A stretch of DNA of 64,000 nt from Burkholderia sp. WP9 (GTDB lineage: Bacteria; Pseudomonadota; Gammaproteobacteria; Burkholderiales; Burkholderiaceae): assembly GCF_900104795.1 (NCBI RefSeq), contig NZ_FNTG01000002.1, forward strand, positions 1,240,001 to 1,304,000. The letters run 5' to 3'. Position numbers and translations under genes: made by a program. Below the pieces are notes generated by a model. It was not told the origin of the DNA, made no database searches, and was given only the letters and a program-made list of their open reading frames with translations. Within the stretch, counting starts at the first letter, position 1. Every line of letters starts with the position of its first letter. This document shows, one piece after another, positions 15,412 through 30,048 of this stretch.

Positions 15412-17097
15412 TCAGATGGCAGGTACGGAGGAGACGACCGAGCCCAGGTTCGGGTCGACGAACACCGTCGGGTTGTTACCCGCGCCGCTGAAGTTGAACA
15501 GACCCATGATGCTGCCGGCCGTCGCATCGAACGAACCGCCGCCGATGCGTTGGCTGCCCAGCCAGTTGTCTTCGATGAAGCGAACCACGGATGCCTGGCT
15601 AATCGGCGTGTGGTCAACGTAGTTCACCTTTGCCCACGGCGAAATCACGAGGAACGGAATACGCGTGCCCGGGCCGCAGCGTCCATTGACCGCCGCACCA
15701 TTCACGCCGTTCGGAGCCGTTCCCGTACCGCACTTGCCGGCGCCGTTCAACTGGTCCGCCTGAGCGTCGAACGACGGGCTCGTGGGATTCGCATAGGCAT
15801 GGTCGTACCAGCCATCCGAATCGTCCCACGCTACGATAACCGCCGTGCTCTTCCAGTCAGGCTGCTGCTGCAGGAAGTTGACTACCTTTGCCGTGAAGGC
15901 CTGTTCGTCGAGCGGGTCCGAGTAGCCAGCATGGCCATCCTGGAATGCCGGGGCCTTGATGAAGCTGACAGACGGATAGTTCCCGGCCTTCACCGCGGCG
16001 AAGAAATCGTCAGAGTCGTACTGGTGGTTTGCCGGGTCAACTGTCTTGCCGTCGGACTGGAGCGTATAGCCGATGGCTGCTGTCGCGCTAGGACGCAAAT
16101 GCTGCGGGTTTGACGTCGACGCGTAGTACTGGAACCAGTTGTGGTGCGGGATGTAATCGGCAGTCGCCTGACCGACCGCCGGGGTCACCGTACTGCGTTT
16201 GCAGCCGGTCGTACCGTTGCTGTTGGTCGTCGACAGGTTGAAGCCGCCCATGAAGCCGCCCCACGTGATGCTCCTGGCGTTAAGCAGGTCGCCGATGTTC
16301 TTGCCAGACATCAGAATCTGGTCGGTCGTGCTGGAGCACAGGTCGTTTGCCGGGTCGACGTCATTGATGAGGGTAATGCCCCCTTGACCGTCGTTGACGT
16401 AGTAAGAATGCGAAGCCGTCGTGAGATTGAATGGCTGCTGGCTTGTCTTGACCAGTTGCACGCCGTTGGTCTGGCCGGCGATAACTTCCAGTGCACCCGG
16501 CGTCGACGGTCCGAACGTATCCGTGTAAGCGTTGTCGCTCATCGCAAAGTGCTGAGCATAGTTCCACATGGCAGTAACGGTGTTGCCATCGTAGTAACCC
16601 ATTACCTGTCCAGTTGTACCGAAGGCGCCTGCGCCACCGCTCGAACCCTTACCCGTGAACTTCGGGAACAGGTCCGCGGCGCCATTGTTATACGCTTGCT
16701 GTTCCGCCGTATAAGCGTGGTTCTGGTCGGCCGTTGCCGCCTGCGTCCGGTCCAGCCGGAACGGATTCGCAGCGCCCGTGCCGTTCAGTGTATTGATGAA
16801 GTTGGGGTTATTGGTCAGCAGTGTGCCGCTCAGACCATTCACCGACGGCGTGCCTGCGGCAGCCGTGAACGCGGGTTCACCCGACGGGTTAGTCGCATTC
16901 GGGTATGTTGCGAAGTAGTGGTCGAAAGAGACGTTTTCGTTGTAAATCACAACGACGTGCTTGATGGGTGTTGCCGTCGTCAACTGATTTTGTGCGCTCA
17001 CGGGCGTCAGCCCATTCGAGCCGCTGCCACCGCATGCGTACAGTGAGACCGCCATTGCGATGCCTGATACACCAAACAGGAAAGCTCGGGTAAACAT
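15412..17097 (-). CDS. Secreted acid phosphatase / phosphoesterase-family lipoprotein (AcpA-like)
   Basis: Exported protein of 561 residues in the phospholipase C/acid phosphatase superfamily. The N-terminus has a signal with a lipobox-like L-Y-A-C ending at Cys22, followed by a Gly/Ser linker, so it may be a lipoprotein. The family signature HVVVIYNENVSFDHYFATYP (about 47-66) is present, with later AMSDNAYTDTFGPSTPG and an Asp-rich VAWDDSDGWYDHAY metal site near 410-425. This matches AcpA-type acid phosphatases more than haemolytic phospholipase C. It heads the operon with the di-haem peroxidase. The exact substrate cannot be told from sequence. Confidence 0.88.
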   Translation of the reverse strand: MFTRAFLFGVSGIAMAVSLYACGGSGSNGLTPVSAQNQLTTATPIKHVVVIYNENVSFDHYFATYPNATNPSGEPAFTAAAGTPSVNGLSGTLLTNNPNFINTLNGTGAANPFRLDRTQAATADQNHAYTAEQQAYNNGAADLFPKFTGKGSSGGAGAFGTTGQVMGYYDGNTVTAMWNYAQHFAMSDNAYTDTFGPSTPGALEVIAGQTNGVQLVKTSQQPFNLTTASHSYYVNDGQGGITLINDVDPANDLCSSTTDQILMSGKNIGDLLNARSITWGGFMGGFNLSTTNSNGTTGCKRSTVTPAVGQATADYIPHHNWFQYYASTSNPQHLRPSATAAIGYTLQSDGKTVDPANHQYDSDDFFAAVKAGNYPSVSFIKAPAFQDGHAGYSDPLDEQAFTAKVVNFLQQQPDWKSTAVIVAWDDSDGWYDHAYANPTSPSFDAQADQLNGAGKCGTGTAPNGVNGAAVNGRCGPGTRIPFLVISPWAKVNYVDHTPISQASVVRFIEDNWLGSQRIGGGSFDATAGSIMGLFNFSGAGNNPTVFVDPNLGSVVSSVPAI

Positions 17098-18065
17098 TCG
17101 AGTTAACTCCGGATATCGTTTTGCTATTTATTTTTCGTCCGCTGTTTCATCGCGAAATAAGCGGGCGCGCGGGGAACGTCAAAAACCACGCTTATTGAAA
17201 CATCCAGTCGTTACCGGGAAATGGCGTTTTATTTACCCAACCCTTACGCCTTGGCAGCAGCGAAAGAGTATTGAATGGTTCCTTGCGCACGGCGGAGAAC
17301 GACGCTCGGGTGGTCAGGTTCATCGCGGAATTGCGCTCAGCTTTCGCAGACAAGACCGTTGACGACGAAGCAGGCGCAGTAAAGCTGGCAACCCGGGTTT
17401 TATGCCAAAGAAAACGGCCGCGCTGTTGGCGCGGCAAGCCCAGTGACCGAAAATGCCTGGCGCGTCACCGATGACATACCGGACAGGCGATATTGCGGCG
17501 GCTGCGATGGTGGATGCGTCGGACAGGGTGTTGGTTGCAAAGAGTGGCTGCAACGAAAGGCATCAGGGAGAACTTGTGAAGAGAATTGGATTGGCAGTTA
17601 ACGATGATGCTCGCGCCGCCGCGTTTGCGGCCGGAGTCTATACCGAGGTTTGGAATCCGCCAGAGGCACGTGCGACAGCCCCACACAGGGTCAGTGCTGC
17701 ACACAAGGTCGCAGTTCATCGTCATGCCGTTTCCCGTGCAGTGAAAGTGCACATGCGGCGGATGCCTACATCTGCACCTGGGCTCGTGGCGAAGCAAAAC
17801 AATATGCAAAAGACTGTGCGAGCAGACGAACCAGACATTGCGGAGATTCCGCGGCAAATAACGCCAGAGGGCAATGTGCTTCGCATTGATTCCCGCGGCA
17901 TTTCCGCCGAGGTAACACGCTAATCGAGTCGGCGAGCCATAGCTGTTAAACGGAGTGGCGGCACGCAATCCTTCCACAGGAAGACATTTGGGCGCCGGAA
18001 CGTCATGCGACAAGCGGCGAAGGTCGCGGGGTAAGTCCGCTCTTCGCAATTTTTTGCGGTGCCAA
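17098..18065. other. Intergenic region (about 1 kb) without a convincing gene
   Basis: Long frames exist on both strands (17453-17923 plus; 17465-18154 minus) but they overlap each other and neither has a recognised domain, good start or typical composition. A short GC hairpin (arm GCCGCGC) lies near 17420. The left part should contain the promoter for the phosphatase-peroxidase operon. Confidence 0.4.
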
Positions 18066-18302
18066 CTAGTCGTCGGGACCAAGGATGACGTCGATTGACG
18101 CCTGACCAGCGATCTCCGCGACGAAGTAAGCCCAACGGCGCGAAAACGGTCCACCGCGAACCTTGATACGCACGCCTAGCGCCGCTACTCCGCGGGCGGG
18201 CGTCGGTCCCTGTATGCGAAACCACGCGTCAAACATATCTTCGGAAGTCGGCACCAGGTCAACGTCGATCTCAAACCCGCGATAGTTCACCGTTCTCTGC
18301 AT
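18066..18302 (-). CDS. Small hypothetical protein
   Basis: A 78-residue acidic protein with an alternating beta-rich pattern (VNYRGFEIDVDLVPTSEDMF, then IRVKxRGGPF). No family is recognised, and no signal peptide or membrane segment is seen. GAAGGA lies 6-7 nt before the ATG, which supports translation. It follows another hypothetical gene by 41 nt on the same strand, so both are probably one transcript. Small proteins of this kind are common next to stress genes in Burkholderia relatives, but no function can be assigned. Confidence 0.6.
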   Translation of the reverse strand: MQRTVNYRGFEIDVDLVPTSEDMFDAWFRIQGPTPARGVAALGVRIKVRGGPFSRRWAYFVAEIAGQASIDVILGPDD

Positions 18303-18343
18303 ACTGATCCTTCACATTCCACAATACGGCTCAGTCTGCTGCT

Positions 18344-18919
18344 TCACAGGCTCTGCACCGCACCCACGTAGCTCTTCGTCGCGTCTTTCAGTTGCTGTGC
18401 CGCGGCCTGCACAGGCGTTGGCAACTCGCTCAGCGCAAGTTGGGTGACAACACCATCCAGCCTCCTGCGAAGCTCTATCACGAGATCCATGACACTGGCG
18501 TCGCCGACACGGCGACGATTGCTCTGCCGGGAACCTACCAGCGAGCAATCGACAAGACGGTCAACCTTGCGAAAGTAGGCTTGGGCTGCCAGACGGTGCC
18601 TTGCATGGAGCGATGCGATGTTCGACTTTGAAAGGCAATCTCTCACGACATCGACATGCATGCCGAAATGAATCTGCAAAGCGTCCGAGGCATCCGCCCG
18701 GTGAAAACATGCCACCTGGTCGAACAGCGTTTCGCCATCTCCGTCGATCAGATCAATCCAGACCTCACCGTCTTCGAGTGCCTGTCCCGAGGGATGAATC
18801 ACCCGTTCGTCCTCATTGGCGGCGGCGAGCATCCGGTGGCCGTCGACATCATCAACCGTCATTTCGAAAACTTCGACCAGCTCCCCGCTTACCGCGACCT
18901 GCATGACCAATAACGCCAT
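18344..18919 (-). CDS. Hypothetical protein
   Basis: A 191-residue product of unknown function. The N-terminal half is acidic and beta-rich (residues 1-75), the C-terminal part is helical (about 95-190), with no signal peptide, no membrane segment and few cysteines. AAGGAG stands 5 nt before the ATG at 18919. First gene of a probable two-gene unit with the small protein at 18066-18302. The opposite strand also contains open frames, but they lack a good ribosome binding site. No domain is recognised. Confidence 0.55.
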   Translation of the reverse strand: MALLVMQVAVSGELVEVFEMTVDDVDGHRMLAAANEDERVIHPSGQALEDGEVWIDLIDGDGETLFDQVACFHRADASDALQIHFGMHVDVVRDCLSKSNIASLHARHRLAAQAYFRKVDRLVDCSLVGSRQSNRRRVGDASVMDLVIELRRRLDGVVTQLALSELPTPVQAAAQQLKDATKSYVGAVQSL

Positions 18920-19296
18920 CTCTGCTCCTTGTGTTGCGATTGACGGGAATAGCGTTGTGTCGATCAGGCGACCGAATCCCGTGATTCGGTCGAGTGGCGC
19001 CCTGACGGGCGCGAGCTTGAGCAGCCTTGAGGCGCTTCATTGCGACGTTGTGTGATGAGTATGATTTGCGCAGATGCGACAGGCATGGCGTGCTTTCACG
19101 CATCATGCGGTGGGCATCCGTACGACATCTATATCGTACAAGCGAAATAAACTGAAAATGAAGCGAGACGGATCGTGTCGAAAAGACAAATGACGCGCAC
19201 GTTGAAACGCGGCGATCAGATCGGGAGCGCATGGCTCCGCGAGGATACTAGTCAGGCAGACATGCAAAGGGCCGGTAGACCGGCCCTTGAAATACG
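18920..19296. other. Gap between the hypothetical pair and the cold-shock gene
   Basis: No gene is seen. The right end holds the cold-shock gene's terminator (19267-19288). The left end should hold the promoter of the hypothetical pair. Confidence 0.4.
19267..19288 (-). terminator. Rho-independent-type terminator of the cold-shock gene
   Basis: A perfect inverted repeat with 10-bp arms AAGGGCCGGT and a 2-nt loop begins 8 nt after the cold-shock stop codon. On the minus strand the 3' arm ends in CCCTTT. The T-tract is short but position and stem strength fit a terminator. Confidence 0.7.
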
Positions 19297-19500
19297 TTAC
19301 TGCGGCGAGATATTTGCGGCCTGCATACCCTTCGGGCCGCGCTTTGTCTCGTAGCTCACCTTCTGATTTTCCGCGAGCGTCTTGAAACCGTCGCCGCGAA
19401 CTTCCGAGAAGTGAGCGAAGAGATCGTCGCCGCCAGCGTCAGGAGTAATGAAGCCAAAGCCTTTGCTATCGTTGAACCACTTAACAGTACCGGTATCCAT
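19297..19500 (-). CDS. Cold-shock-domain protein (CspA family)
   Basis: RNA/ssDNA-binding chaperone of 67 residues, the standard length. The single OB-fold has RNP1 KGFGFI (residues 13-18) and RNP2-like LFAHFSEV (about 28-35). The start at 19500 ([10 protein letters not shown]) matches the family; a longer frame upstream would be untranslated leader. A hairpin terminator follows the stop. The 100-200 nt upstream may form the long 5' leader typical of cold-shock mRNAs, but no specific element could be identified. Confidence 0.95.
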
Positions 19501-20335
19501 GAGAATTCCCTGAGATAAAAACAACAGCTCCATTGCGGAGCGACATAAACTTCAAGGAAGAAGAGAGGATAGCGAGTACCGCGCAGAAGAGGCGGAAAAT
19601 GATGATCAGCAATCGAGCTTCTTGAATATTTCGAGGCCCACGATACCTCGGCAAGCCGGTACTGTCAACGCATATCGTGAAGCGCGCTCGCTATCGAGCG
19701 ACGCGTCCACTTGTCGCGAGGTCCGTTCGGTAAGGTTGTGATCAAGATTACTAACGTGTAAGTGCTGCGTCCGTCCGTTGGCCCAAGCCCATCGGCGGGA
19801 CCTTACCACTTAGCGGCCATCCAAAGTGAAATGCAATGAATGACCGTAACGGGTCGAGGTCGTGTGAAAACGTATCGCTGGCACGACTGCCCAGACAGGG
19901 TGCGGAAAGGAACGTGGCGGGGAGGCCACGCTTCATCCAGCTGCATTGATAACACCTGAACATCAATGCTTCAAGAAAATGCACTTATCGCGTAGTTCCT
20001 TTTGCGTGAGTATCTGTATTCAAGATTCCAGCGACATTGGAACGAAAGTAAAACGCATTGGAGACACGACTATGCACAACGCACGGCGCAACTTGCGCGG
20101 CTAACGCGCTGCAAGACATTCCTGCGACCCGCCTTGTTAGGCCGTGCAGTTCCGCGGTCCAGTCGGTTCAGGCATCCGACAAAAAAACACGCCATAGCCC
20201 GGCCAAGCCGAACTCCAACGGCGTTACGGCAGCGTTTCACACCTATCGCTTACGACTGAAGCGCGTCAGCGTTGAGTCGACAGCGCCGATCGGCCTGTTT
20301 GTTTTCTATCGCAATGACCTTCAGGAGCCATTTCC
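19501..20335. promoter_or_regulatory. Long intergenic region with shared upstream element of the citrate-lyase-like genes
   Basis: No gene is recognised in this 835-bp gap. At 19980-20013 lies TGCACTTATCG, 17 nt, then GAGTAT; the same arrangement recurs at 24391-24424 before the transporter gene. The element is about 320 nt before the first lyase-like gene. The left part should include the cold-shock promoter and leader. I see no tRNA or strong terminator. Confidence 0.5.
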
Positions 20336-21634
20336 ATGCAAATCACCGGTATGTTGTACGGCGCACGCCTGTTGCAATTCGTCGGATTCCCAGCGAGTGA
20401 GATCCTCGGCCCGAGCGCCAGCGAGGACGAAATCAAGACGATGATTGATCGTCATCGTCAGGTTTTCATCAAGCCCGTCTTCAAGGGTGGAGTCGGAAAG
20501 AAGGGGAAGGCGGGCTTGCTCGGCCGCGCGGCCGATCTCAAGACAGCGTTGGCCGAAAAAGAGCGGTTGTACTTTGCCGAGCATACCGTCGGCCACCTGA
20601 AGGCCAAGGCAAATGGCGTGACGTTTGAAGCCGGCGTTCCGGCCCAGCATGAGGTGTACTTTTCGATCACCGATTCCACCCGCTTTCGTGCGCCCATGAT
20701 GACGCTCTCGCACAAGGGCGGCATCGATATCGAAGAGGTCGACCCGAAGCATGTGGCGATGGTGCCCTTCGACGCGTTGACGGGGCTCAAGGCGTTCGTC
20801 GTGGCGAACGCGCTGAGCGAAATCGGTGCGCCGAAGGAGATCATCTCGCCGCTCGTGCAGCAGTTGCCGAAACTCTGGGAGCTCTTTCACGATTTCGGCA
20901 TGACGACACTGGAGTTGAATCCGATCCGCATGCGCGAGGACAGGAACGGACGACTCACGCCGGTTGCCTGCGACTTCAAGTGCGGCTTCGATCGCGATGA
21001 TCCGCGATGGACGCGCCTCGGACTGCCGCCACACCTGTTCGCGGCGGATTACTCCGATTTCGAGCAGGAGATCAATCAGTTGCGCACGCACCAGGGCCAG
21101 AGCGACGTGTATGTGATCAACGAGAAAGGCACGATTCTCGCGCCCACGTTCGGCGGCGGCGCCAACTCGCTCGTCACCGAAATGCTGGGGGACGCCGCGA
21201 TCATCTCGTCGGATTTCGGCGGCAATCCGCCTTACGCGAAGATGAAAGAAGTGGCCCGCATCTGCTTCAGGCACTGGCTCAAGCAGTCGAATGTGCTTTT
21301 CATCATCGGCGGCAAGTCGAATAACACCGACATCTTCGAGACGCTGCGCGCGATGGCCGATGCTCTTCGCGAACACTTCAGCGAGCATGGGCCGACGCCC
21401 CTTTACGTGGTGCTCGGCCGCGGAGGGCCGAACCTCGTGCGAGGGATGGCCGCGCTGAGAGATACATGCGATTCGCTCGGCCTGCCCTACCGGCTGTTCG
21501 GATTCGATTCCGACATCAGTGAGGTCATCCAGTACGCACGGCAGGCGGATGCGTGGATGCGCGCCGGTGGCCGAGCCGAGGTCGCAGCACGAATCGGTGC
21601 ACCCGCGACCGAAACCGAAACGGCTCAAGCCTGA
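20336..21634 (+). CDS. ATP-citrate-lyase-like ATP-grasp subunit (AclB-like)
   Basis: This 432-residue protein resembles the small (ATP-grasp, succinyl-CoA-synthetase-beta-like) subunit of two-subunit ATP-citrate lyases and the N-terminal part of the animal enzyme. Landmarks: VFIKPVFKGGVGKKGKAGL (nucleotide loop), LSHKGGIDIEEVD, MTTLELNPIRM with the metal-binding ELNP, and the citrate-domain-like TFGGGANSLVTEML and RGGPN segments. It would use ATP to phosphorylate the partner's histidine and activate a carboxylate. CAGGAG precedes the ATG. Ten nt separate it from the AclA-like gene, in the same order (aclB-aclA) as in reverse-TCA bacteria. Substrate uncertain, since a Burkholderiaceae host is not expected to run that cycle. 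Confidence 0.8.
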   Translation: MQITGMLYGARLLQFVGFPASEILGPSASEDEIKTMIDRHRQVFIKPVFKGGVGKKGKAGLLGRAADLKTALAEKERLYFAEHTVGHLKAKANGVTFEAGVPAQHEVYFSITDSTRFRAPMMTLSHKGGIDIEEVDPKHVAMVPFDALTGLKAFVVANALSEIGAPKEIISPLVQQLPKLWELFHDFGMTTLELNPIRMREDRNGRLTPVACDFKCGFDRDDPRWTRLGLPPHLFAADYSDFEQEINQLRTHQGQSDVYVINEKGTILAPTFGGGANSLVTEMLGDAAIISSDFGGNPPYAKMKEVARICFRHWLKQSNVLFIIGGKSNNTDIFETLRAMADALREHFSEHGPTPLYVVLGRGGPNLVRGMAALRDTCDSLGLPYRLFGFDSDISEVIQYARQADAWMRAGGRAEVAARIGAPATETETAQA

Positions 21635-21644
21635 GGAGAGCGAC

Positions 21645-24344
21645 ATGTACAAGCAAACCAGCAACCCGTTCAAGTATTTCGTTGGCGTCAACTCGCTCGC
21701 GCAGATAGCCACGCGCGACGATCGAGTGTGCGTACTTAACATCCTGGGCGGTGAGTCCTCAGACGTGACGCCCGTCAGTCACGCGTTCTCGGGCGGCAAT
21801 ATTGTCTTCGGCACGGCGCCGGGCAAGGGCGGCCAGGTGCTCGCCACATCTATCGGCGATATTGCGGTGTACAACAACGTCCGCGAGGGGCTGGAAGCGG
21901 GACACCGCTTCAACTGCGGCGTAGTTTATCTACCGCCATCGGCGGCTCGCGACGGCGTCGCCGAACTGATCCGCGTCAATCCCGATCTGACGAAGATATT
22001 CATCATCACCGAGAAGATCGCCGTGCACGACGCTCGCGAAATTCGCGCGATGGGGCAGCAAGCGGGCATCGACATCTTCGGTGCGAACGGGCTCGGCGTC
22101 GCCGACTCGTGGAATCGCGTGAGAATCGGCGGAGCACTCGGCGGTGATAGTCCAGACGATTCATTGCGCAAGGGATCGATCGCCATCTTCTCGAACTCCG
22201 GCGGCTTCAGCACGACAATCGCGCAGTACCTGCGCATGAGCGGCTGGGGCACGTCGACGGTCATCTCAAGCGGCAAGGACGTGTACATCCACTACGCCGC
22301 ACCGGAATTTGCGTTTGCGCTCGCCAATGATGCGCGCAGCAAGGCTGCTGTGCTCTATTGCGAACCTGGTGGCTACTACGAAGCCGATGCGGCCTTCACG
22401 AAGCCCGTGGTCGCCTGCGTGGTGGGCCGATGGAAGAGCCGCCTGACGCGAGCGGTCGGCCATGCGGGCGCGATGGCCGGCGGCTCCGACGACGCGCAAG
22501 CCAAGGAACGCTGGTTCATGGACCAGTTCGGCGTGGACCGGCTCTTCACACCCGAGGATCCATGCTGCTCGGCCAAAGGCGCGGTCGTCACGAACATCGC
22601 GCATATCCCGGCGGCGCTGACCGCCGTGATGCGCGCCAACGCGACGATGCCCGACTTCGCGCCCGAAGGCAGTCTCGCGCTCAAGCCGTGGTTCGGCTCC
22701 GACCAAGGTATCCGGCTTCCGTCCGGCCTGGCGATTCCTGTGGTCGGTGCGGTCGCCCCCTATGACGAGCAGGTCTTGCAGGTCAATCGGCAAGTCGGGT
22801 CGATTGCGCCGCGTCAGGCGCTCAAGGACGCATCGGGCGCTTCGCAGATGGATGCGAAAACGCAAGTCAGCAGCCTGCATGGCGCCTCGATGCTCGACGC
22901 AGCGACGCGTTCGCTCGAAGCGAACGTCAGCCTTGCTCTGCTTCACGAGTTCGGCGGCGAGAACGACGAGAAGCTCATTGATGTCGCGATCGCCGCGTTC
23001 GTCAATCTGCACGGAACGCCGGAACTCGCGGCGGCGCACGCCGCTCGCGAGGCCGGAAACGCGCCCAACGCGATCCTGGCCGCCGCGGCGTCGATCATCG
23101 GCCCGAATCGCCAGCGAGCGGCTCGGGATGCCGTGAAATGGATGATCGATCGCTTCTCGGCAGCCGGCCTGACGAGCGCGCTCGATGAGAACTTCGACAT
23201 CGCCAGGATCGACGCGGGCGGCAGCGAGCCGTTTTTCGCAGACTCAAGCGATCCGCGCGCCGAGGCGATGCTCGCGGGACTCGCCAAGCGTGGGGCCCAG
23301 TCGGTCCTCGTCCGCTGGCTCGCGTCTCAGCCTGATCACCCGACGGCCGACGCGGTGCTGGCCGCGATCACCACGACGCTCGCGTGGGGACCCCTGATGC
23401 GCAAGCGCATCTCGCGCGTTACGGCCGAGAGCCTGCCCTGGTGGACCATGCTGTTCGGCACACTGATCGGCGCATCGGCGGACGCCTCGCGGCACCGTCC
23501 AGACGGCTTCTGCGGCTTTACCACGCAAGCTTTGCTGAACGAACTCAGCCTCACCGAAATCTGCTTTGCCGCGCTGCTCAACCTCGAGCCCGGGCCCGAC
23601 GATCTGTTCGCCTTCAAGACGCTGGTCGGTCTGCTGCTCACCAACGGTCCAGGAGCCATCTCGGCGCAGGGTGCGAAAGGCGCGGTATCGGCCGACGGTC
23701 CGGAAAGTCCAGAGCGCGTGCAACTCAACAAGGCGCTGGTCGGCTTTCTCACGCATACCGGCTATACGCATGGCGGCAACGGCTATGAGGGCATCGCGTT
23801 CCTGATCGAAGCGTTCCGGGACAGCGGCCTCGCCGATCCGTCCGACCCTGTACATGGCGTTGACCTGCGCTCGCTGGCCGAGCGCTCGGTCGAGCGGTAT
23901 GCGCAATACAAGGCCCGGCAGAAGCATGCCGGCAGCCTCGACATCGCGAAGCTGCCGGGCGTGAACCACCCGGTCTTCAAGGACAGGCCGGTCAACCACG
24001 ATCCGCGCGAAGTGTTCATCGCGGACCTGTGCGAGAAGCGCGGCGAATACAACGTGTTCCATACGTTCTATCGCGAACTTGTGCAGGCGTTGTTCGATGC
24101 CGGCGTGTCCCGCAACGTATATTGCGTCAACGTCGATGCGGTGATTGCAGCGCTGCTGCTGAAGATGCTGTGGCAGCCGCTGCGACGTGGTGAATTGACC
24201 GAGACCGATCTGGAAACCGCCGCGTTCACGATCTTCCTCTATCCCCGCATGCTCGGATGCGCGGCGGAAATCGACGATCACCTGAACCGGGGACGCAACA
24301 TGGATACCCGCACGCCCGCCTCCCAGTGCCGGTTTGTGGCCTGA
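21645..24344 (+). CDS. ATP-citrate-lyase-like large subunit with tandem citrate-synthase-like segments
   Basis: An 899-residue protein, far longer than the roughly 600 residues usual for AclA. Residues 1-330 are a succinyl-CoA-synthetase-alpha-like CoA-binding region with NSGGFSTTIAQYL and the phospho-histidine motif GHAGA (His273). Two citrate-synthase-like segments follow. The first (about 415-560) aligns with the large-domain helices and has LHGTPELAAAH (His456). The second (about 595-899) is complete, but the usual A-D-H-G-P reads T-N-G-P (Asn667), while H775 (GVNHPVF), D831 (NVDAV) and R868 are kept. GAGGAG precedes the ATG. Probably forms citryl-CoA-type intermediates and cleaves them; altered residues suggest another substrate or use of the first segment. 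Confidence 0.78.
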   Translation: MYKQTSNPFKYFVGVNSLAQIATRDDRVCVLNILGGESSDVTPVSHAFSGGNIVFGTAPGKGGQVLATSIGDIAVYNNVREGLEAGHRFNCGVVYLPPSAARDGVAELIRVNPDLTKIFIITEKIAVHDAREIRAMGQQAGIDIFGANGLGVADSWNRVRIGGALGGDSPDDSLRKGSIAIFSNSGGFSTTIAQYLRMSGWGTSTVISSGKDVYIHYAAPEFAFALANDARSKAAVLYCEPGGYYEADAAFTKPVVACVVGRWKSRLTRAVGHAGAMAGGSDDAQAKERWFMDQFGVDRLFTPEDPCCSAKGAVVTNIAHIPAALTAVMRANATMPDFAPEGSLALKPWFGSDQGIRLPSGLAIPVVGAVAPYDEQVLQVNRQVGSIAPRQALKDASGASQMDAKTQVSSLHGASMLDAATRSLEANVSLALLHEFGGENDEKLIDVAIAAFVNLHGTPELAAAHAAREAGNAPNAILAAAASIIGPNRQRAARDAVKWMIDRFSAAGLTSALDENFDIARIDAGGSEPFFADSSDPRAEAMLAGLAKRGAQSVLVRWLASQPDHPTADAVLAAITTTLAWGPLMRKRISRVTAESLPWWTMLFGTLIGASADASRHRPDGFCGFTTQALLNELSLTEICFAALLNLEPGPDDLFAFKTLVGLLLTNGPGAISAQGAKGAVSADGPESPERVQLNKALVGFLTHTGYTHGGNGYEGIAFLIEAFRDSGLADPSDPVHGVDLRSLAERSVERYAQYKARQKHAGSLDIAKLPGVNHPVFKDRPVNHDPREVFIADLCEKRGEYNVFHTFYRELVQALFDAGVSRNVYCVNVDAVIAALLLKMLWQPLRRGELTETDLETAAFTIFLYPRMLGCAAEIDDHLNRGRNMDTRTPASQCRFVA

Positions 24345-24424: not shown

Positions 24425-24483
24425 TCGACAAACAATGATCCGCCCGAACATCACAAAGTTCAAAATTGTCAGGAGACACCTCG

Positions 24484-25782
24484 ATGCATCCCTCCTCAAG
24501 CACCCTGCCCCCTGGGCAGTCCAAGACAACCGCCGTATTACGCGTAACGGCAGGCAACTTCCTGGAGCAGTTCGACTTCTTCCTGTTTGGCTTCTATGCA
24601 ACGCAGATCGCCGCTGTTTTTTTCCCGGCAGCGAGCGAGTTCGCATCGCTGATGATGACCTTCGCCGTCTTCGGCGCAGGTTTCCTGATGCGGCCGCTCG
24701 GTGCGATCATCCTCGGCGCGTACATCGACGATGCCGGCCGCCGCAAGGGCCTGATCGTCACGCTGTCGATCATGGCGAGTGGCACCATCCTGATCGCGTT
24801 CGTGCCCGGCTATGCGACGATCGGACTCTTCGCCCCGGCGCTGGTTCTCATCGGTCGTCTGCTGCAGGGCTTCTCGGCGGGAGCTGAACTCGGCGGGGTT
24901 TCGGTGTATCTGGCCGAAATGGCGACGCCGGGCCGCAAGGGCTTCTTCACGAGTTGGCAGTCGGCGAGCCAGCAAGTGGCTATCGTCATCGCCGCCGCGC
25001 TCGGCTTCGCGCTCAATCAGTGGCTCGACACGGCGGCGATCGCCGCGTGGGGATGGCGCGTGCCGTTCTTCGTAGGTTGCATGATCGTGCCTTTCATCTT
25101 CATCCTGCGGCGCAATCTCGAGGAAACAGAGGAGTTCAAGCAGCGCCAGCATCGCCCGAGCATGAAAGAGGTCTTTGCTACGCTCGTGCAGAACTGGAGT
25201 GTCGTGATCGCCGGCGTGCTGCTGGTGGCGATGACCACCACGACTTTTTATCTGATCACGGTATATGCGCCGACCTTCGGCAAGACGGTCCTGCATCTGA
25301 GCACTGCCGACAGCCTGCTCGTCACGCTGTGCGTGGGTGTCTCCAATTTCATCTGGCTGCCGATTGGTGGTGCGCTGTCGGACAGGATCGGACGCCGTCC
25401 GCTCCTTCTCGCGATGACGATCCTGGCAATTGCGACCGCCTACCCGGCGCTGTCGCTGCTGGCCCACGCACCGAGCTTCGTCAACATGCTGCTTGTGCTG
25501 CTCTGGCTCTCGTTCATGTACGGCATGTACAACGGCGCGATGGTCGTCGCGCTCACGGAGGTGATGCCAGTGGAGGTACGCGTCGCCGGATTCTCACTCG
25601 CCTACAGCCTCGCGACAGCGGTCTTCGGAGGTTTTACGCCCGTCATCTCGACCGCGCTCATTCATATGACGGGTGATAAAGCCGCGCCAGGCTACTGGAT
25701 GAGCTTCGCCGCGGTGTGCGGACTCGGTGCAACACTCGCACTGTACCGGCGCCGTCGCGTTCCGCTGCACGCGGCTCCCTGA
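24484..25782 (+). CDS. MFS transporter, metabolite:H+ symporter family (citrate/tricarballylate-type)
   Basis: Inner-membrane proton symporter of 432 residues with twelve predicted helices. It belongs to the MHS group of citrate (CitA) and tricarballylate (TcuC) transporters: [19 protein letters not shown] at the start of helix 1, [20 protein letters not shown] in loop 2-3, [23 protein letters not shown] in helix 4, and [12 protein letters not shown] in loop 8-9. ATG 24484 follows CAGGAG. It lies 139 nt after the AclA-like gene and 46 nt before an aconitate-isomerase-like gene. Together with its neighbours this supports uptake of a tricarboxylate such as trans-aconitate, citrate or tricarballylate. 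Confidence 0.87.
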
Positions 25783-25828
25783 AGCATCGCACGCTTCCTC
25801 GAACATTAGACTGACATTCTATCGCCCC

Positions 25829-26611
25829 ATGAAATCCTTTCTTCTGAAACTCTGCACCGCGGCGCTGCTCGGCACCTGCGCCGCTGCGGCGAATGTGCAG
25901 GCCGCAGATCTGCATGTGATGAGTTCGGGCGGCTTTACCGCCGCCTACAAGCTGCTCGGCCCGAAGTTCGCGGCGTCCACCGGCAATACGCTCGATACCG
26001 CGCTCGGCCCGTCGATGGGCAAGTCGCCGGAGGCCATTCCGAACCGGCTTCAGCGCGGCGAACCTGCCGACGTGGTGATCATGGTCGGCTATGCACTCGA
26101 TGATCTGATCAAGCAGGGCAAGGTGATCCCCGGTTCGCGCGTCGAGCTTGCGGATTCGCGGATCGGCATGGTGGTGCGCGACGGCGCGCCGAAGCCCGAC
26201 ATCGGGTCCGAGGCGGCGCTCAAGGCAACCTTGCTGCATGCCCGGTCGATCGCTTACTCGGATAGCGCGAGCGGCGTCTATATCGAGCGCGAGTTGTTCA
26301 AGCGGCTCGGCATCGAGGAGCAGGTCAAGACCAAGGCGAAGATGATCCCCAAAATTCCGGTGGCGTCCGTTGTTGCGACGGGCGACTACGAAGTGGGATT
26401 TCAGCAGGTGAGTGAGCTGCTTCCAGTGAAGGGCGCGGCGTATGTCGGCAAGATTCCGGAGTCGATGCAGTCCGTCACGCGCTTTGCGGCCGGCATTCCC
26501 GTCGGCGCACAACACCCCAAGGAAGCCAAAGCGCTGCTCGACTATCTCGCGTCACCCGCCGTGCAGCCGGAGGTGACATCGACCGGGCTCGATTCCGTCG
26601 CCACGCATTGA
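25829..26611 (+). CDS. Periplasmic ModA-like protein, probable aconitate isomerase
   Basis: A 260-residue exported protein with a Sec signal peptide cleaved around A25 (VQA|ADL). The mature part has the type II substrate-binding fold of molybdate-binding ModA proteins (HVMSSGGFTAAYKLLGPKF, LQRGEPADVVIMVG, YSDSASGVYIERELFKRLG), but no ABC permease or ATPase gene is nearby. Aconitate isomerase of Pseudomonas (trans-aconitate to cis-aconitate) is a periplasmic member of this fold and of similar length. With a tricarboxylate transporter 46 nt upstream, isomerase is the best guess; an orphan binding protein is the alternative. It converges on dctA with only 15 nt between stops. Confidence 0.7.
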   Translation: MKSFLLKLCTAALLGTCAAAANVQAADLHVMSSGGFTAAYKLLGPKFAASTGNTLDTALGPSMGKSPEAIPNRLQRGEPADVVIMVGYALDDLIKQGKVIPGSRVELADSRIGMVVRDGAPKPDIGSEAALKATLLHARSIAYSDSASGVYIERELFKRLGIEEQVKTKAKMIPKIPVASVVATGDYEVGFQQVSELLPVKGAAYVGKIPESMQSVTRFAAGIPVGAQHPKEAKALLDYLASPAVQPEVTSTGLDSVATH

Positions 26612-26626
26612 GACGAAGGCTACGAT

Positions 26627-27928
26627 TCAGCCCGTCAGGTCGGCGGGCTGATCGAATGCATCCTCACGCTCATGCGCGAGGCTCAATGCGTTCTTCAGGC
26701 GCACCCGGTCGCAGGAACGCTCCCACATCGATACGAAGATCACCGCGCAGGCATTGCTGATCACACTCGTCAGGGCGCGCGCTTCGGACATGAAGCGATC
26801 GATGCCGACCAGCAGCGCGACACCTGCAGGCGGCAAGTCGGGAATGACGGCCAGCGTCGCGACGAGCGCAACCAGTCCGCTGCCCGTTACGCCCGCCGCG
26901 CCCTTCGACGTGAGCAGCATGACCGCGAGCATGGTCGCGATCTGGCCGCCCGAAAGGTGAACATCGCACGCTTGAGCGATGAACATGGAGGCGAGCGTCA
27001 GGTAGATCGCCGTGCCGTCGAGGTTGAACGAATAGCCGGCAGGCAGCACGAGTCCCACGATGCCCTTGTCGCAGCCAAGCGCTTCGAGCTTGATGATGAG
27101 GCGCGGCAGCACCGGTTCGGTCGACGACGTCGCGAGTACGATGACGAGTTCTTCGCGAATGTAGCGCAGCAGTCGCCAGAGCGAGAAGCCATGCAGCCGT
27201 GCGAGTGGACCGAGCACGCAAACGATGAACAGCAGGCACGCCGCGTAGAACGCCACCATCAGCATGCCGAGCGAGCCAATCGAACGAATGCCGAAGCGGC
27301 CCACCGTGAATGCCATCGCGCCGAATGCGCCGACGGGCGCAAGACGCATGATCATCGCAAGGATGCGAAACAGCACGTGAGCGATGCCGTCGATGAATTC
27401 CTGTACCCGCCGCCCGGCGCTTTGGTTGGCATTCAATGCGAAGCCGAACAGAAGGGCAAGCAGCAGCACCGGCAGCACCTCGCCTTTCTCGAAAGCGCCG
27501 ACGAGCGTCTCAGGGATCACATGCAGCGCGAATTCGACGAATCCGTGCGACTGCGAGCGCGTCGAATACTGCGCGAGGACCGCCGCATCCAGATGATGCG
27601 CGTCGATGTGCAGGCCCGCGCCCGGGTGCAGCGCAAACGCGGTCGCCAGCCCCAGAACGAGCGCAACAATGGTGAGAAAGTAGAACAACGCCAGCGCCTT
27701 CAGAATCGTCCGCCCGATCTTCGAGCCGCTCGCAAGCGACGTGATGCCGGTGACGATCGTGCAAAAGACGATCGGGGCGATCATCATGCGCACGAGGGCG
27801 ACGAAAGCATCGCTGAGTGGTTTGAGCGACGCGCTGGCCTGCGGCCACAAGTAGCCAACGGTCATGCCGAGCCCCATTCCAAGCAGGACCTGAACGTAGA
27901 GCAGCCTGAACGGCCTCGCCAACGTCAT
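26627..27928 (-). CDS. Dicarboxylate/amino-acid:cation symporter (DctA/GltP family)
   Basis: Inner-membrane secondary transporter of 433 residues with the elevator fold of the DAACS family. Seen are the N-terminal helix pair LYVQVLLGMGLGMTVGYLWP, the hairpin with a serine-rich stretch (LATSSTEPVLPRL), the NMDGT-like motif S-F-N-L-D-G-T-A-I-Y, and the second hairpin TSKGAAGVTGSGLVAL. The ligand-binding Asp/Arg region near DRFMSEARALTSVISNACA fits C4-dicarboxylate transporters. It probably imports succinate, fumarate or malate, or related acids. Its start overlaps the LysR gene's stop by 4 nt (ATGA), so regulator and transporter are one operon, facing the isomerase-like gene. Confidence 0.9.
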   Translation of the reverse strand: MTLARPFRLLYVQVLLGMGLGMTVGYLWPQASASLKPLSDAFVALVRMMIAPIVFCTIVTGITSLASGSKIGRTILKALALFYFLTIVALVLGLATAFALHPGAGLHIDAHHLDAAVLAQYSTRSQSHGFVEFALHVIPETLVGAFEKGEVLPVLLLALLFGFALNANQSAGRRVQEFIDGIAHVLFRILAMIMRLAPVGAFGAMAFTVGRFGIRSIGSLGMLMVAFYAACLLFIVCVLGPLARLHGFSLWRLLRYIREELVIVLATSSTEPVLPRLIIKLEALGCDKGIVGLVLPAGYSFNLDGTAIYLTLASMFIAQACDVHLSGGQIATMLAVMLLTSKGAAGVTGSGLVALVATLAVIPDLPPAGVALLVGIDRFMSEARALTSVISNACAVIFVSMWERSCDRVRLKNALSLAHEREDAFDQPADLTG

Positions 27929-28857
27929 TTCGGCGCCTTCTTTCCCGCGGCGCCGACCGTGCCGCTGCGCTTCGTGTCGAGGATCGTCTGATAAAACTGT
28001 TGTGCGGCCGGCGCGAGCGGACGTCCGCGGCGCCTGACTATGCCGACGCGTCTCGTCACGACCGGATCGACGAGCGGCACGCTTGTCAGAATCGGATGGT
28101 CGCGCATGGGCATGGCCATTGAAGGCACGGCGGCCACACCGAGTCCTGCTTCGATCAGGCCAAGCATGGTGGTGACATGACGGGTCTCGCAGACACTAGG
28201 CATTCTCGGCGCCACGGCGGTCAGCGCCTGATCGAGCAGCAGGCGGTTGCCAGAAGTCTTGTCGACGGAAACGTATTCGTGTTCATAAAGCTCGCTCCAG
28301 GTCACCTGCTTTTTTCGAGCAAGGGGATGATCGCGGCGGCACGCGGCGACGAACCGTTCCTGCAGCAAGATCTTGAACTCGACCTCGGTCTCCTGGCTGC
28401 CCATGAAGCTGACGCCGAAATCGGCTTCGCCGCTGATCACCGCGCCGAGCACTTCGTTGGCGCTCGAGTCGAGGAGCTTGACCCGGATTCGCGGATAGCG
28501 GCTGTGAAAGGCGGCAATGACGCTCGGCAGGAAATAATAGGCAACGGACGGCACACATGCGATGGTCACATGACCCAGGCGGCTCGTGGAGACGTCGCGG
28601 ATACCGAGCAAGGCGACATCGAGATCGTCGAGCAGTTGTTCCGCGCTCGGGGCGAAAACGCGCCCTACGGTTGTGAGCGTAACGCTTCGGGTTGTTCGCT
28701 CGAACAGGCGCACGCCGAGCGCCGCCTCGAGCTTCTCGATGCGGCGACTCAATGCCGGCTGCGAAATGTTGACCGCCTCCGCGGCTTTGCGGAAGCTACC
28801 CAACTCCACGACAGCTCGAAACGCCTGCAAATCGTTCAGGTCGAAGTTAACGCCCAC
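27925..28857 (-). CDS. LysR-family transcriptional regulator
   Basis: A 310-residue LysR protein with the winged helix at residues 1-65 (FDLNDLQAFRAVVELGSFRKAAEAVNIS then QPALSRRIEKLEAALGVRLFERTTR) and a periplasmic-binding-like effector domain after residue 90. GTG 28857 is chosen because GGAGG lies 7 nt upstream and the HTH begins at the usual distance; an upstream ATG frame to 28992 adds residues unlike the family. Co-transcribed with dctA through a 4-bp overlap. It is a candidate regulator for dctA and for the tricarboxylate genes opposite. Confidence 0.88.
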   Translation of the reverse strand: MGVNFDLNDLQAFRAVVELGSFRKAAEAVNISQPALSRRIEKLEAALGVRLFERTTRSVTLTTVGRVFAPSAEQLLDDLDVALLGIRDVSTSRLGHVTIACVPSVAYYFLPSVIAAFHSRYPRIRVKLLDSSANEVLGAVISGEADFGVSFMGSQETEVEFKILLQERFVAACRRDHPLARKKQVTWSELYEHEYVSVDKTSGNRLLLDQALTAVAPRMPSVCETRHVTTMLGLIEAGLGVAAVPSMAMPMRDHPILTSVPLVDPVVTRRVGIVRRRGRPLAPAAQQFYQTILDTKRSGTVGAAGKKAPK

Positions 28858-30048
28858 GAACCATCCTCCGAATTTAAGTGCGGCTATTTTGCATGATGCG
28901 GGCGAAAGCGCCCATCGAGAGCAACACTCGGTACATTCAGCCCAAGGGATCGCACCGAAGTCGGGGGGCGGTTCCGTGGCGTCAGCGGTCATTCATGGCC
29001 GAGAGGTGGGTGTCGCTTTATGGCCGACGACCAGTCGCACACAACAAGAGAGCTCATTCGCCTTAGCCCAAAAGTTCGACGATCATCACATCCGTGTCGT
29101 CATGCGCTATCAAATCCAGCTTCGCCTCATCCCGGACGGCTGCACTGTCGCGCGGAACGAGCTGGATAGATCCCACATCGAGCCGCCCGTGATCCGCAAC
29201 AAGATACGCCGAGCCGGGCATCGGCAACTCGTGCTTTATTGTGATGCCTTCGCGCAGCGTCGCGATACGCACGCGTGCGTCGGCATTGATGGGCAGCGCG
29301 CGCGGACGTCAGCCGTGCATCCGTGCATATACGCCGGCTTGTAAGCCGCTCGCAATTTGCTGAGGAACACGGTAAAGCATTGGTGCACCGACTGTTCCGG
29401 GCAACCCTGGCGATGGCGATACTGCGGGATAGCGTGAACTCAGCACGTTTTCCGCAGCGCAGTTTTTCCAAAACCACAAGATCGCAGGCCGGCGAAAAGT
29501 ACGCTCAACCGCGGCCATCACTCCAGGCCGAAACGATGGGTCGACAGTCCGATGCGGCCGCGCATTTCCCGCCGAAAGAGCACAACGGACCAAGGGTGCA
29601 CTATGGCCTCAGTCTGTTAATCAGGTCGATCGGTCCATTCGTGCCTGATTTCTTGCGCAACTATCCGTGCACCGGCAGGTTGCGCAGCACATGAACGACG
29701 GAAAGAAATCACGGGAACGTGGGCTAGCCATGGTGCTGCGCAAAGGGCGCTCGAAAGCCACATGCGGTCGATGGGGGCATCACAACATCGACCACGGCAA
29801 TGTCCGTGTAGAGGAACTCGATTAACTGCCGGAAAATCAACCAAACAATTTCCGGCGGGGCCGATTTAAGCGGTCAAACGAGCCGCTTCCCCGTCTCCTG
29901 TTACTCAAGTAACTTCCGGGATCGGCCACTTTGAAACCATAAAACTTCCGCCGTGCCGGAGAACGCCCGACCTGGCGATCAGCCTTATCGCCGTCGCCAT
30001 GCATCAGCGCATCCGAGCGCGCAGCGTCACTGCGCGCTTCGCCACGAA
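28858..30048. other. Gene-poor gap with one relic
   Basis: About 1.2 kb between the LysR gene and the aldehyde dehydrogenase. It contains a pirin-family fragment at 29063-29305 (minus). The rest shows only short frames with no recognised family, and is probably decayed coding DNA. The promoter of the LysR-dctA operon should be near 28860-28950. Confidence 0.4.
29063..29305 (-). pseudogene. Pirin-like (YhaK-type bicupin) C-terminal fragment
   Basis: The minus strand encodes LPINADARVRIATLREGITI, then AYLVADHGRLDVGSIQLVPR, DSAAVRDEAKL and ahead to IVELLG and stop. This pattern (INADARxxxxxLxxG, then AxLxVxxGxxxxxxxxLxxGDxAxxxDE, ending in LL-D/E-L) is the C-terminal cupin of YhaK-type pirins. 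The N-terminal, metal-bearing cupin is missing upstream, so it is a relic. Confidence 0.6.

Follow-up and report, generated by a model that had tools for sequence, protein, structure and literature searches.

The locus examined here lies in a 64,000-nucleotide stretch of the genome of the soil bacterium Burkholderia sp. WP9 (the window) and encodes an 899-residue protein resembling the alpha subunit (AclA) of ATP-citrate lyase (ACL), which raises the question of what an AclA of this length is and what it does. An earlier note on this DNA had described it as an oversized subunit of new architecture, with a CoA-ligase half followed by two citrate-synthase-like segments that split the catalytic residues between them and a hint of a different acyl-CoA cleavage. 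As judged by sequence, the long alpha subunit is a member of a known family, the type II ACL, in which 899 residues is a normal length; the AclA of about 900 residues from Magnetococcus and tubeworm symbionts belongs to the same family, so the size of the subunit gives no support to a new kind of protein. Together with the AclB-like beta subunit encoded directly upstream, it probably forms the type II ACL of a heterotroph clade, predicted to carry out the ATP-driven cleavage of imported citrate with the second of two citryl-CoA-lyase (CCL)-like modules as the lyase and the first as a scaffold.

Sequence identity between the window AclA and the postulated type II AclA of Magnetococcus and tubeworm symbionts is about 57%. 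A tree of 121 aligned sequences (alignment A2, rows hand-chosen) separated 52 rows including the window (clade 1) from 69 rows (clade 2; Magnetococcales, tubeworm symbionts and others) with an SH-aLRT of 100, although the rows of the two clades came from separate searches, each listing the nearest 120 proteins, and intermediates may be missing. Full-length identity of the window protein to the clade-2 rows is 53-59%; to the near relative P0002 it is 96%. The published work is cited here from passages of each paper. Type II ACL is described in tubeworm symbionts in PMC3522073, where two primers are printed that translate to VAKEEWF and NGFEAIA; the corresponding sites in the window protein (P0001) are AKERWF at 286 and NGYEGI at 712. 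Mmc1_3638/3639 is given as a postulated type II ACL in PMC6783814, with citrate cleavage detected in MC-1 cells. The type II aclAB of tubeworm symbionts and Chromatiaceae is placed inside reverse tricarboxylic acid (rTCA) cycle gene clusters, with expression in one symbiont (PMC6315080), and Planctomycetes sequences are placed between the type II family and the pair of citryl-CoA synthetase (CCS) and CCL (PMC5459899). A long AclA was found in 39 of 398 phylum-wide genomes (window genome included; 4 fragmentary or partial), the other listed matches covering the synthetase domain. None of the 10 same-genus or same-family genomes listed among the 398 carried it, so the distribution is patchy. Two acl alpha copies occur in Caballeronia terrestris, Paraburkholderia kirstenboschensis, P. 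tuberum and C. arationis (L034/L093, L039/L056, L049/L082 and L058/L097).

The presence of two lyase-like modules was assessed by cutting A2 at residues 385-612 (module 1) and 613-899 (module 2) and comparing the parts, using hhalign, with a profile of 23 CCL-like proteins drawn from 23 of 30 loci, only one of which (L122) lies above the curated CCL cut-off. Module 1 scored 54.0 (P 2.7e-7) over 191 columns, co-linear with CCL positions 9-219, and module 2 scored 84.7 (P 7e-12; CCL 15-240). Module 1 (385-590) also matched module 2 with a P of 1.5e-8, or 1.5e-5 when a shorter cut was used. Sixty column-shuffled module 1 profiles reached no more than 24.5 against CCL (best P 0.011) and no more than 24.5 against module 2, while the synthetase domain scored 18.8, reversed profiles at most 25.5 and 15 unrelated neighbour families at most 23.4. 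Because the module scores lie far above these shuffled, reversed and unrelated-family controls, a tandem duplication of a citrate-synthase/CCL-like module in AclA is supported at the level of sequence profiles. The two segments of the earlier note therefore stand, in wider form than the 415-560 and 595-899 it had proposed. The link to CCL is a profile-profile comparison, to which a MAFFT alignment with CCL-like rows is added for module 2; the latter also gave a sub-threshold match (E 1.7e-7) to the NCBIfam citryl-CoA lyase model PRK06224.1-6.

An AlphaFold model of AclA built with A2 had a mean pLDDT of 86.6 and a pTM of 0.66. Fold searches with this model, in which the modules were not isolated, were dominated by the synthetase domain. 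Chlorobium AclA was aligned over 19-617 and human ACLY over 14-887, with rmsd values of 17-20 Å, and such whole-chain alignments therefore do not match the citrate synthase homology (CSH) module of type I ACL to either module. Citryl-CoA lyase 6hxp was absent among the best 50 fold matches listed, which was not counted as evidence against the duplication.

Residues of module 2 were matched through the alignment with CCL-like proteins and through a profile (A3, mixing 7 module 2 rows and 12 CCL-like rows) compared with PDB citrate synthases and CCL. The positions of H709, H775, R788, D831 and R868 (Table 1) are taken here to be those of the citrate-synthase catalytic residues, and the column of N667 is presumably, on the basis of its motif, that of the His of ADHGP in type I ACL (ACLY H900). 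The His-to-Asn change and the retained His775, Asp831 and Arg868 had been read correctly in the earlier note, which had not listed H709. L122 (from G001), the protein above the CCL cut-off, has Ala (DAGIAPPS) where the other aligned proteins have the DHG/EHG His, so even a CCL can do without this His; its gene begins some 220 bases beyond a CCS-alpha-like match that lies on the same G001 contig.

Module 1, by comparison, is degenerate. The His of LHGTPE to which the earlier note had drawn attention is present in the window protein but is not conserved, its column holding His in 45 of the 121 sequences (36 of 52 in clade 1 and 9 of 69 in clade 2, where 42 have Ser) and the neighbouring column 455 in 6. 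Module 1 columns aligned to DHG, HGG, DPR and NVD vary among the 121 sequences, and within the module 1/module 2 alignment no counterpart of the GH site or of the C-terminal Arg was seen in module 1. Invariant residues number 100 of 313 in the synthetase domain, 16 of 228 in module 1 and 62 of 287 in module 2. The most plausible reading of this pattern is that module 1 is a dead copy, and catalysis is argued to lie with module 2 because it keeps every catalytic residue, whereas none is conserved at the aligning sites of module 1.

Table 1. Positions of the acl genes, of predicted domains and residues of AclA, and of neighbouring genes in the window.
Feature	Coordinates	Strand	Basis or conservation
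Type II aclA (alpha subunit, 899 aa)	21645..24344	+	Translated without internal stop
aclB-like beta subunit, 432 aa, ATP-grasp and ATP-citrate-lyase citrate-binding domain	20336..21634	+	Pfam, PDB matches
Alpha acyl-CoA synthetase domain of succinyl-CoA synthetase (SCS)/CCS type, residues 18-330	21696..22634	+	
H273, predicted phospho-histidine in GHAGA	22461..22463	+	Aligns with CCS/SCS GHAGA; 121/121
Module 1, degenerate CCL-like, residues 385-612	22797..23480	+	hhalign to CCL profile
H456 in LHGTPE, module 1, at or one residue beside DHG site	23010..23012	+	Two alignment cuts one column apart
Module 2, predicted active CCL module, residues 613-899	23481..24341	+	hhalign to CCL profile
N667 in TNGP, at His of (D/E)HG	23643..23645	+	Asn in 121/121
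H709 in THGGN, at HGG His of CCL and citrate synthase	23769..23771	+	121/121
H775 in GVNHPVF, at G(F/Y)GH His	23967..23969	+	121/121
R788 of DPR motif	24006..24008	+	121/121
D831 of NVD motif	24135..24137	+	121/121
R868 near C terminus, at C-terminal Arg	24246..24248	+	121/121
TcuC-type tricarballylate/proton symporter, MHS family	24466..25782 (ATG probably 24484)	+	NCBIfam PRK15075 764 bits, cut-off 445
Solute-binding protein SBP_bac_11	25727..26611 (start probably near 25829, as in 260-aa relatives)	+	Pfam 145.6 bits; cluster in 21/81 loci
DctA-type C4-dicarboxylate transporter	26627..27928	-	NCBIfam PRK01663 544 bits, cut-off 513; cluster in 17/81 loci
LysR-type regulator (longest open reading frame; start may be internal)	27925..28992	-	Pfam; cluster in 19/81 loci

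The beta open reading frame (ORF) matched Pfam ATP-grasp_2 with 56.2 bits (cut-off 29.5) and Citrate_bind with 55.9 bits (cut-off 26.8), and its best PDB match was the CCS large subunit (6hxq_B, E 7.1e-33). Alpha residues 26-291 found the CCS small subunit (6hxq, E 1.5e-34) as their best PDB sequence match, which, with GHAGA present, agrees with the CoA-ligase half and phospho-His273 proposed earlier. AclA missed the cut-off of the succinate-CoA ligase alpha NCBIfam equivalog (110.9 bits vs 336); the alpha gene of its relatives is mostly annotated as 'CoA-binding protein' or 'succinyl-CoA synthetase alpha subunit'. The two genes are 10 bases apart, with AGGAG ahead of the aclA ATG. The approximately 3 kb 5' of aclB (17098-20335) contains short ORFs only, the longest of 229 aa, and is bounded by a frame of 561 aa at 15412-17097 on the minus strand.

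The gene neighbourhood was sampled at 81 loci (the window and the best 80 of 514 relatives), with neighbour ORFs grouped into clusters by BLAST and one representative giving each cluster its name. The beta gene was called in 71 of these loci, some of the misses being due to an alpha ORF called too long or to the end of a contig. A transporter belonging to one of four mutually unrelated citrate/tricarboxylate families lay within 10 kb at 51 of the 81 loci: TcuC-type MHS at 32, TctA of the tripartite tricarboxylate system at 13 (Pfam 526 bits), CitMHS at 3 (TIGR00784, above cut-off) and 2HCT at 3 (Pfam 490 bits; TIGR00783, citrate:cation symporter, at 470.7 bits and so short of the 549-bit cut-off). 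As the four counts sum to 51, no locus holds two of them. Where at least 5 kb was available on both sides, the figure was 37 of 51 loci. In the window genome, 2 of 50 MHS-family matches pass the TcuC cut-off, one being the gene directly after aclA, and no match to TctA was found. Among further neighbours were TctD-like regulators (16 of 81 loci), histidine kinases (15), malic enzyme (10; 1149.6 bits, just under the cut-off of 1178) and pyruvate dehydrogenase (PDH)-complex genes (5; E1 and E2 named by representative, a third cluster by eye).

Several loci differ in their surroundings. At four of the 81 (L034, L039, L054 and L056), tcuA-tcuB-tcuC (tricarballylate dehydrogenase, 4Fe-4S protein and symporter) stand 5' of aclB-aclA on the same strand, with TcuA and TcuB above cut-off in L054, and a route from tricarballylate through cis-aconitate and citrate to acetyl-CoA is possible there. 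The acl copies at L093, L097 and L081 (P. dilworthii) adjoin a GntR-type regulator and a major facilitator superfamily (MFS) protein nearest to aromatic-acid transporters, and an amidohydrolase with weak similarity to 4-sulfomuconolactone hydrolase is present as well at L081 and L093, all three names resting on matches below curated cut-offs; these copies perhaps act on another substrate. In Variovorax, a class II aldolase-family gene lies 5' of the acl pair at L059, L060, L063, L064 and L065 (PRK07044, above cut-off in L060), and a conserved protein of 391-439 aa is also found at L060, L063, L064 and L065, the L060 copy having no NCBIfam match at E 1e-15. Elsewhere in the window genome, L117 (C1:4527761) and L118 (C1:1331558) are citrate-synthase-like with what, judged by eye, resembles an N-terminal helix-turn-helix segment; nine PF00285 matches were recorded in that genome, some of them pieces of one gene.

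In ACL and CCS, ATP phosphorylates the phospho-His, and citrate is converted to citryl phosphate and then to citryl-CoA. By this general biochemistry, ATP would phosphorylate H273 of the window protein, and citrate bound by the beta subunit would pass through citryl phosphate to citryl-CoA, which module 2, going by its residue pattern, would split into acetyl-CoA and oxaloacetate. Module 1 would serve as a non-catalytic scaffold replacing a second lyase protomer. The neighbouring genes suggest that the substrate would be external citrate, or citrate formed from tricarballylate via cis-aconitate, and that in some genomes oxaloacetate may leave through malic enzyme and pyruvate dehydrogenase.

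Given its membership of the type II ACL family, AclBA could also be imagined to take part in CO2 fixation through the rTCA cycle, the role put forward for clade 2. PF01855 (2-oxoacid:ferredoxin oxidoreductase, POR/OGOR) was searched for. It was strong (best E <=7e-58) in all 12 clade-2 genomes tried, of 38, and also in 8 of 25 clade-1 genomes tried (from 80 loci); six of these eight matches were partial (about positions 2-158 of 231), and two, in G411 and G421, were full-length. The remaining clade-1 genomes gave values near 1e-14 (2), from 1e-7 to 1e-4 (11, of which 6 were just over the cut-off) or no match (4). The window genome, however, had no PF01855 match, whereas 10 of 14 control genomes did. 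Because of this absence and the citrate-uptake genes beside acl, AclBA is not an enzyme of the rTCA cycle in this host, and an rTCA role is given almost no credence. Another possibility is that the enzyme of this clade, or of some paralogues, is a type II ACL-like acyl-CoA lyase for a different hydroxy-acid (2-methylcitrate, homocitrate, citramalate or a tricarboxylate derived from aromatics), which would accommodate both the Asn fixed at the DHG site and the acl copies beside GntR, aromatic-acid-like MFS and amidohydrolase genes. The same Asn is nevertheless fixed in the autotroph clade, whose postulated role is citrate cleavage, and the four unrelated transporter families at 51 of the 81 sampled loci point to citrate or tricarboxylates, so that the different acyl-CoA cleavage suggested earlier is retained as a rival, though a rather unlikely one.

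Two further alternatives concern which part of AclA does the work. In one model of human ACLY, argued in PMC10115795, the CSH domain is allosteric and not catalytic; by extension, the synthetase domain would cleave citryl-CoA and both CCL-like modules would be structural or allosteric. This is considered unlikely, as module 2 keeps the citrate-synthase catalytic set in all 121 sequences while the DHG, HGG, DPR and NVD columns of module 1 vary. That module 1 instead donates the missing His to the active site of module 2 would fit the position of H456 and its frequency in clade 1, but the scarcity of this His in clade 2 and in the family as a whole, the low share of invariant residues in module 1 relative to module 2, and the full set of five residues kept by module 2 make such split catalysis, also envisaged in the earlier note, highly improbable. 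Citrate cleavage by module 2 is preferred, against which several points must be set. The human ACLY argument and the strong PF01855 matches in clade 1 are two of them. Pfam Citrate_synt reached 20 bits (cut-off 27), confined to module 2 (705-876), and when the PDB was searched with an ordinary HMM built from the whole-family alignment A2, neither citrate synthase nor CCL came up with a significant score (best match 8qwb, E 2). In the passages drawn on, type II ACL is called postulated or putative, and no purified-protein assay or structure was seen there. As for the neighbourhood, the 80 loci are nearest relatives and not independent, the cluster names depend on single representatives, 30 of the 81 loci had none of the four transporters in the available sequence (several being cut by contig ends), L081, L093 and L097 have the aromatic-acid-like MFS instead, and the window symporter family bears tricarballylate, not citrate, in its name.

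Among the listed papers, as judged from title and opening of the abstract, none dealt with tandem CCL modules or with heterotrophs carrying type II ACL. As far as the literature surveyed goes, the tandem arrangement of one predicted live and one predicted dead lyase module and the citrate-catabolic setting outside autotrophs are new, and the enzyme name is not: the name type II ACL dates from 2011, the enzyme is still called postulated, and its domain anatomy is not described in the passages of the papers cited. The live/dead module pair offers a direct test of the dispute over whether the CSH domain is catalytic or allosteric (PMC10115795). The transporter linkage in Paraburkholderia, Caballeronia, Variovorax, Microvirga, Methylobacterium, Denitromonas and others points to an ACL route for exogenous citrate. 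Citrate is a root exudate. A broader proposal, which is possible but has the odds against it, is that the type II lyase core is a pseudo-symmetric pair of CCL modules, a live and a dead one on the same chain, that the alpha4beta4 tetrameric core of type I has given way to an alpha2beta2 enzyme, and that many rhizosphere proteobacteria possess an unnoticed aerobic citrate-splitting catabolism; the alpha2beta2 stoichiometry with a pseudo-tetrameric core is a guess. If true, this natural half-dead mutant could decide whether the CSH module of ACL is a catalytic lyase or an allosteric scaffold.

Compared with known systems, the window AclA differs from citrate synthase, which lacks a synthetase domain and whose Pfam family it matches below cut-off. 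Type I ACL (AclAB/ACLY; Chlorobium 6hxj, human 6hxh) likewise has a beta citrate-binding domain and an alpha phospho-His domain followed by a citrate-synthase-like module, but with one CSH module and an alpha subunit of 617 aa (6hxj_B), against two CCL-like modules in 899 aa, and with what is presumably a His in ADHGP against the Asn of the window family. The CCS and CCL of Hydrogenobacter (6hxq, 6hxp) were the best PDB matches, CCS large for beta, CCS small for alpha 26-291 and CCL for profile A3; these proteins are separate in Hydrogenobacter, whereas in the window family the CCS small and CCL parts are joined in a single alpha chain that carries the CCL module twice. The closest likeness is to the type II AclA of Magnetococcus and tubeworm symbionts, in length, full-length alignment, invariant residues and primer sites. 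The clade-2 enzymes nevertheless form a separate clade, and rTCA gene clusters are described for the tubeworm-symbiont and Chromatiaceae genes (PMC6315080), whereas clade 1 has citrate/tricarboxylate-uptake genes as neighbours.

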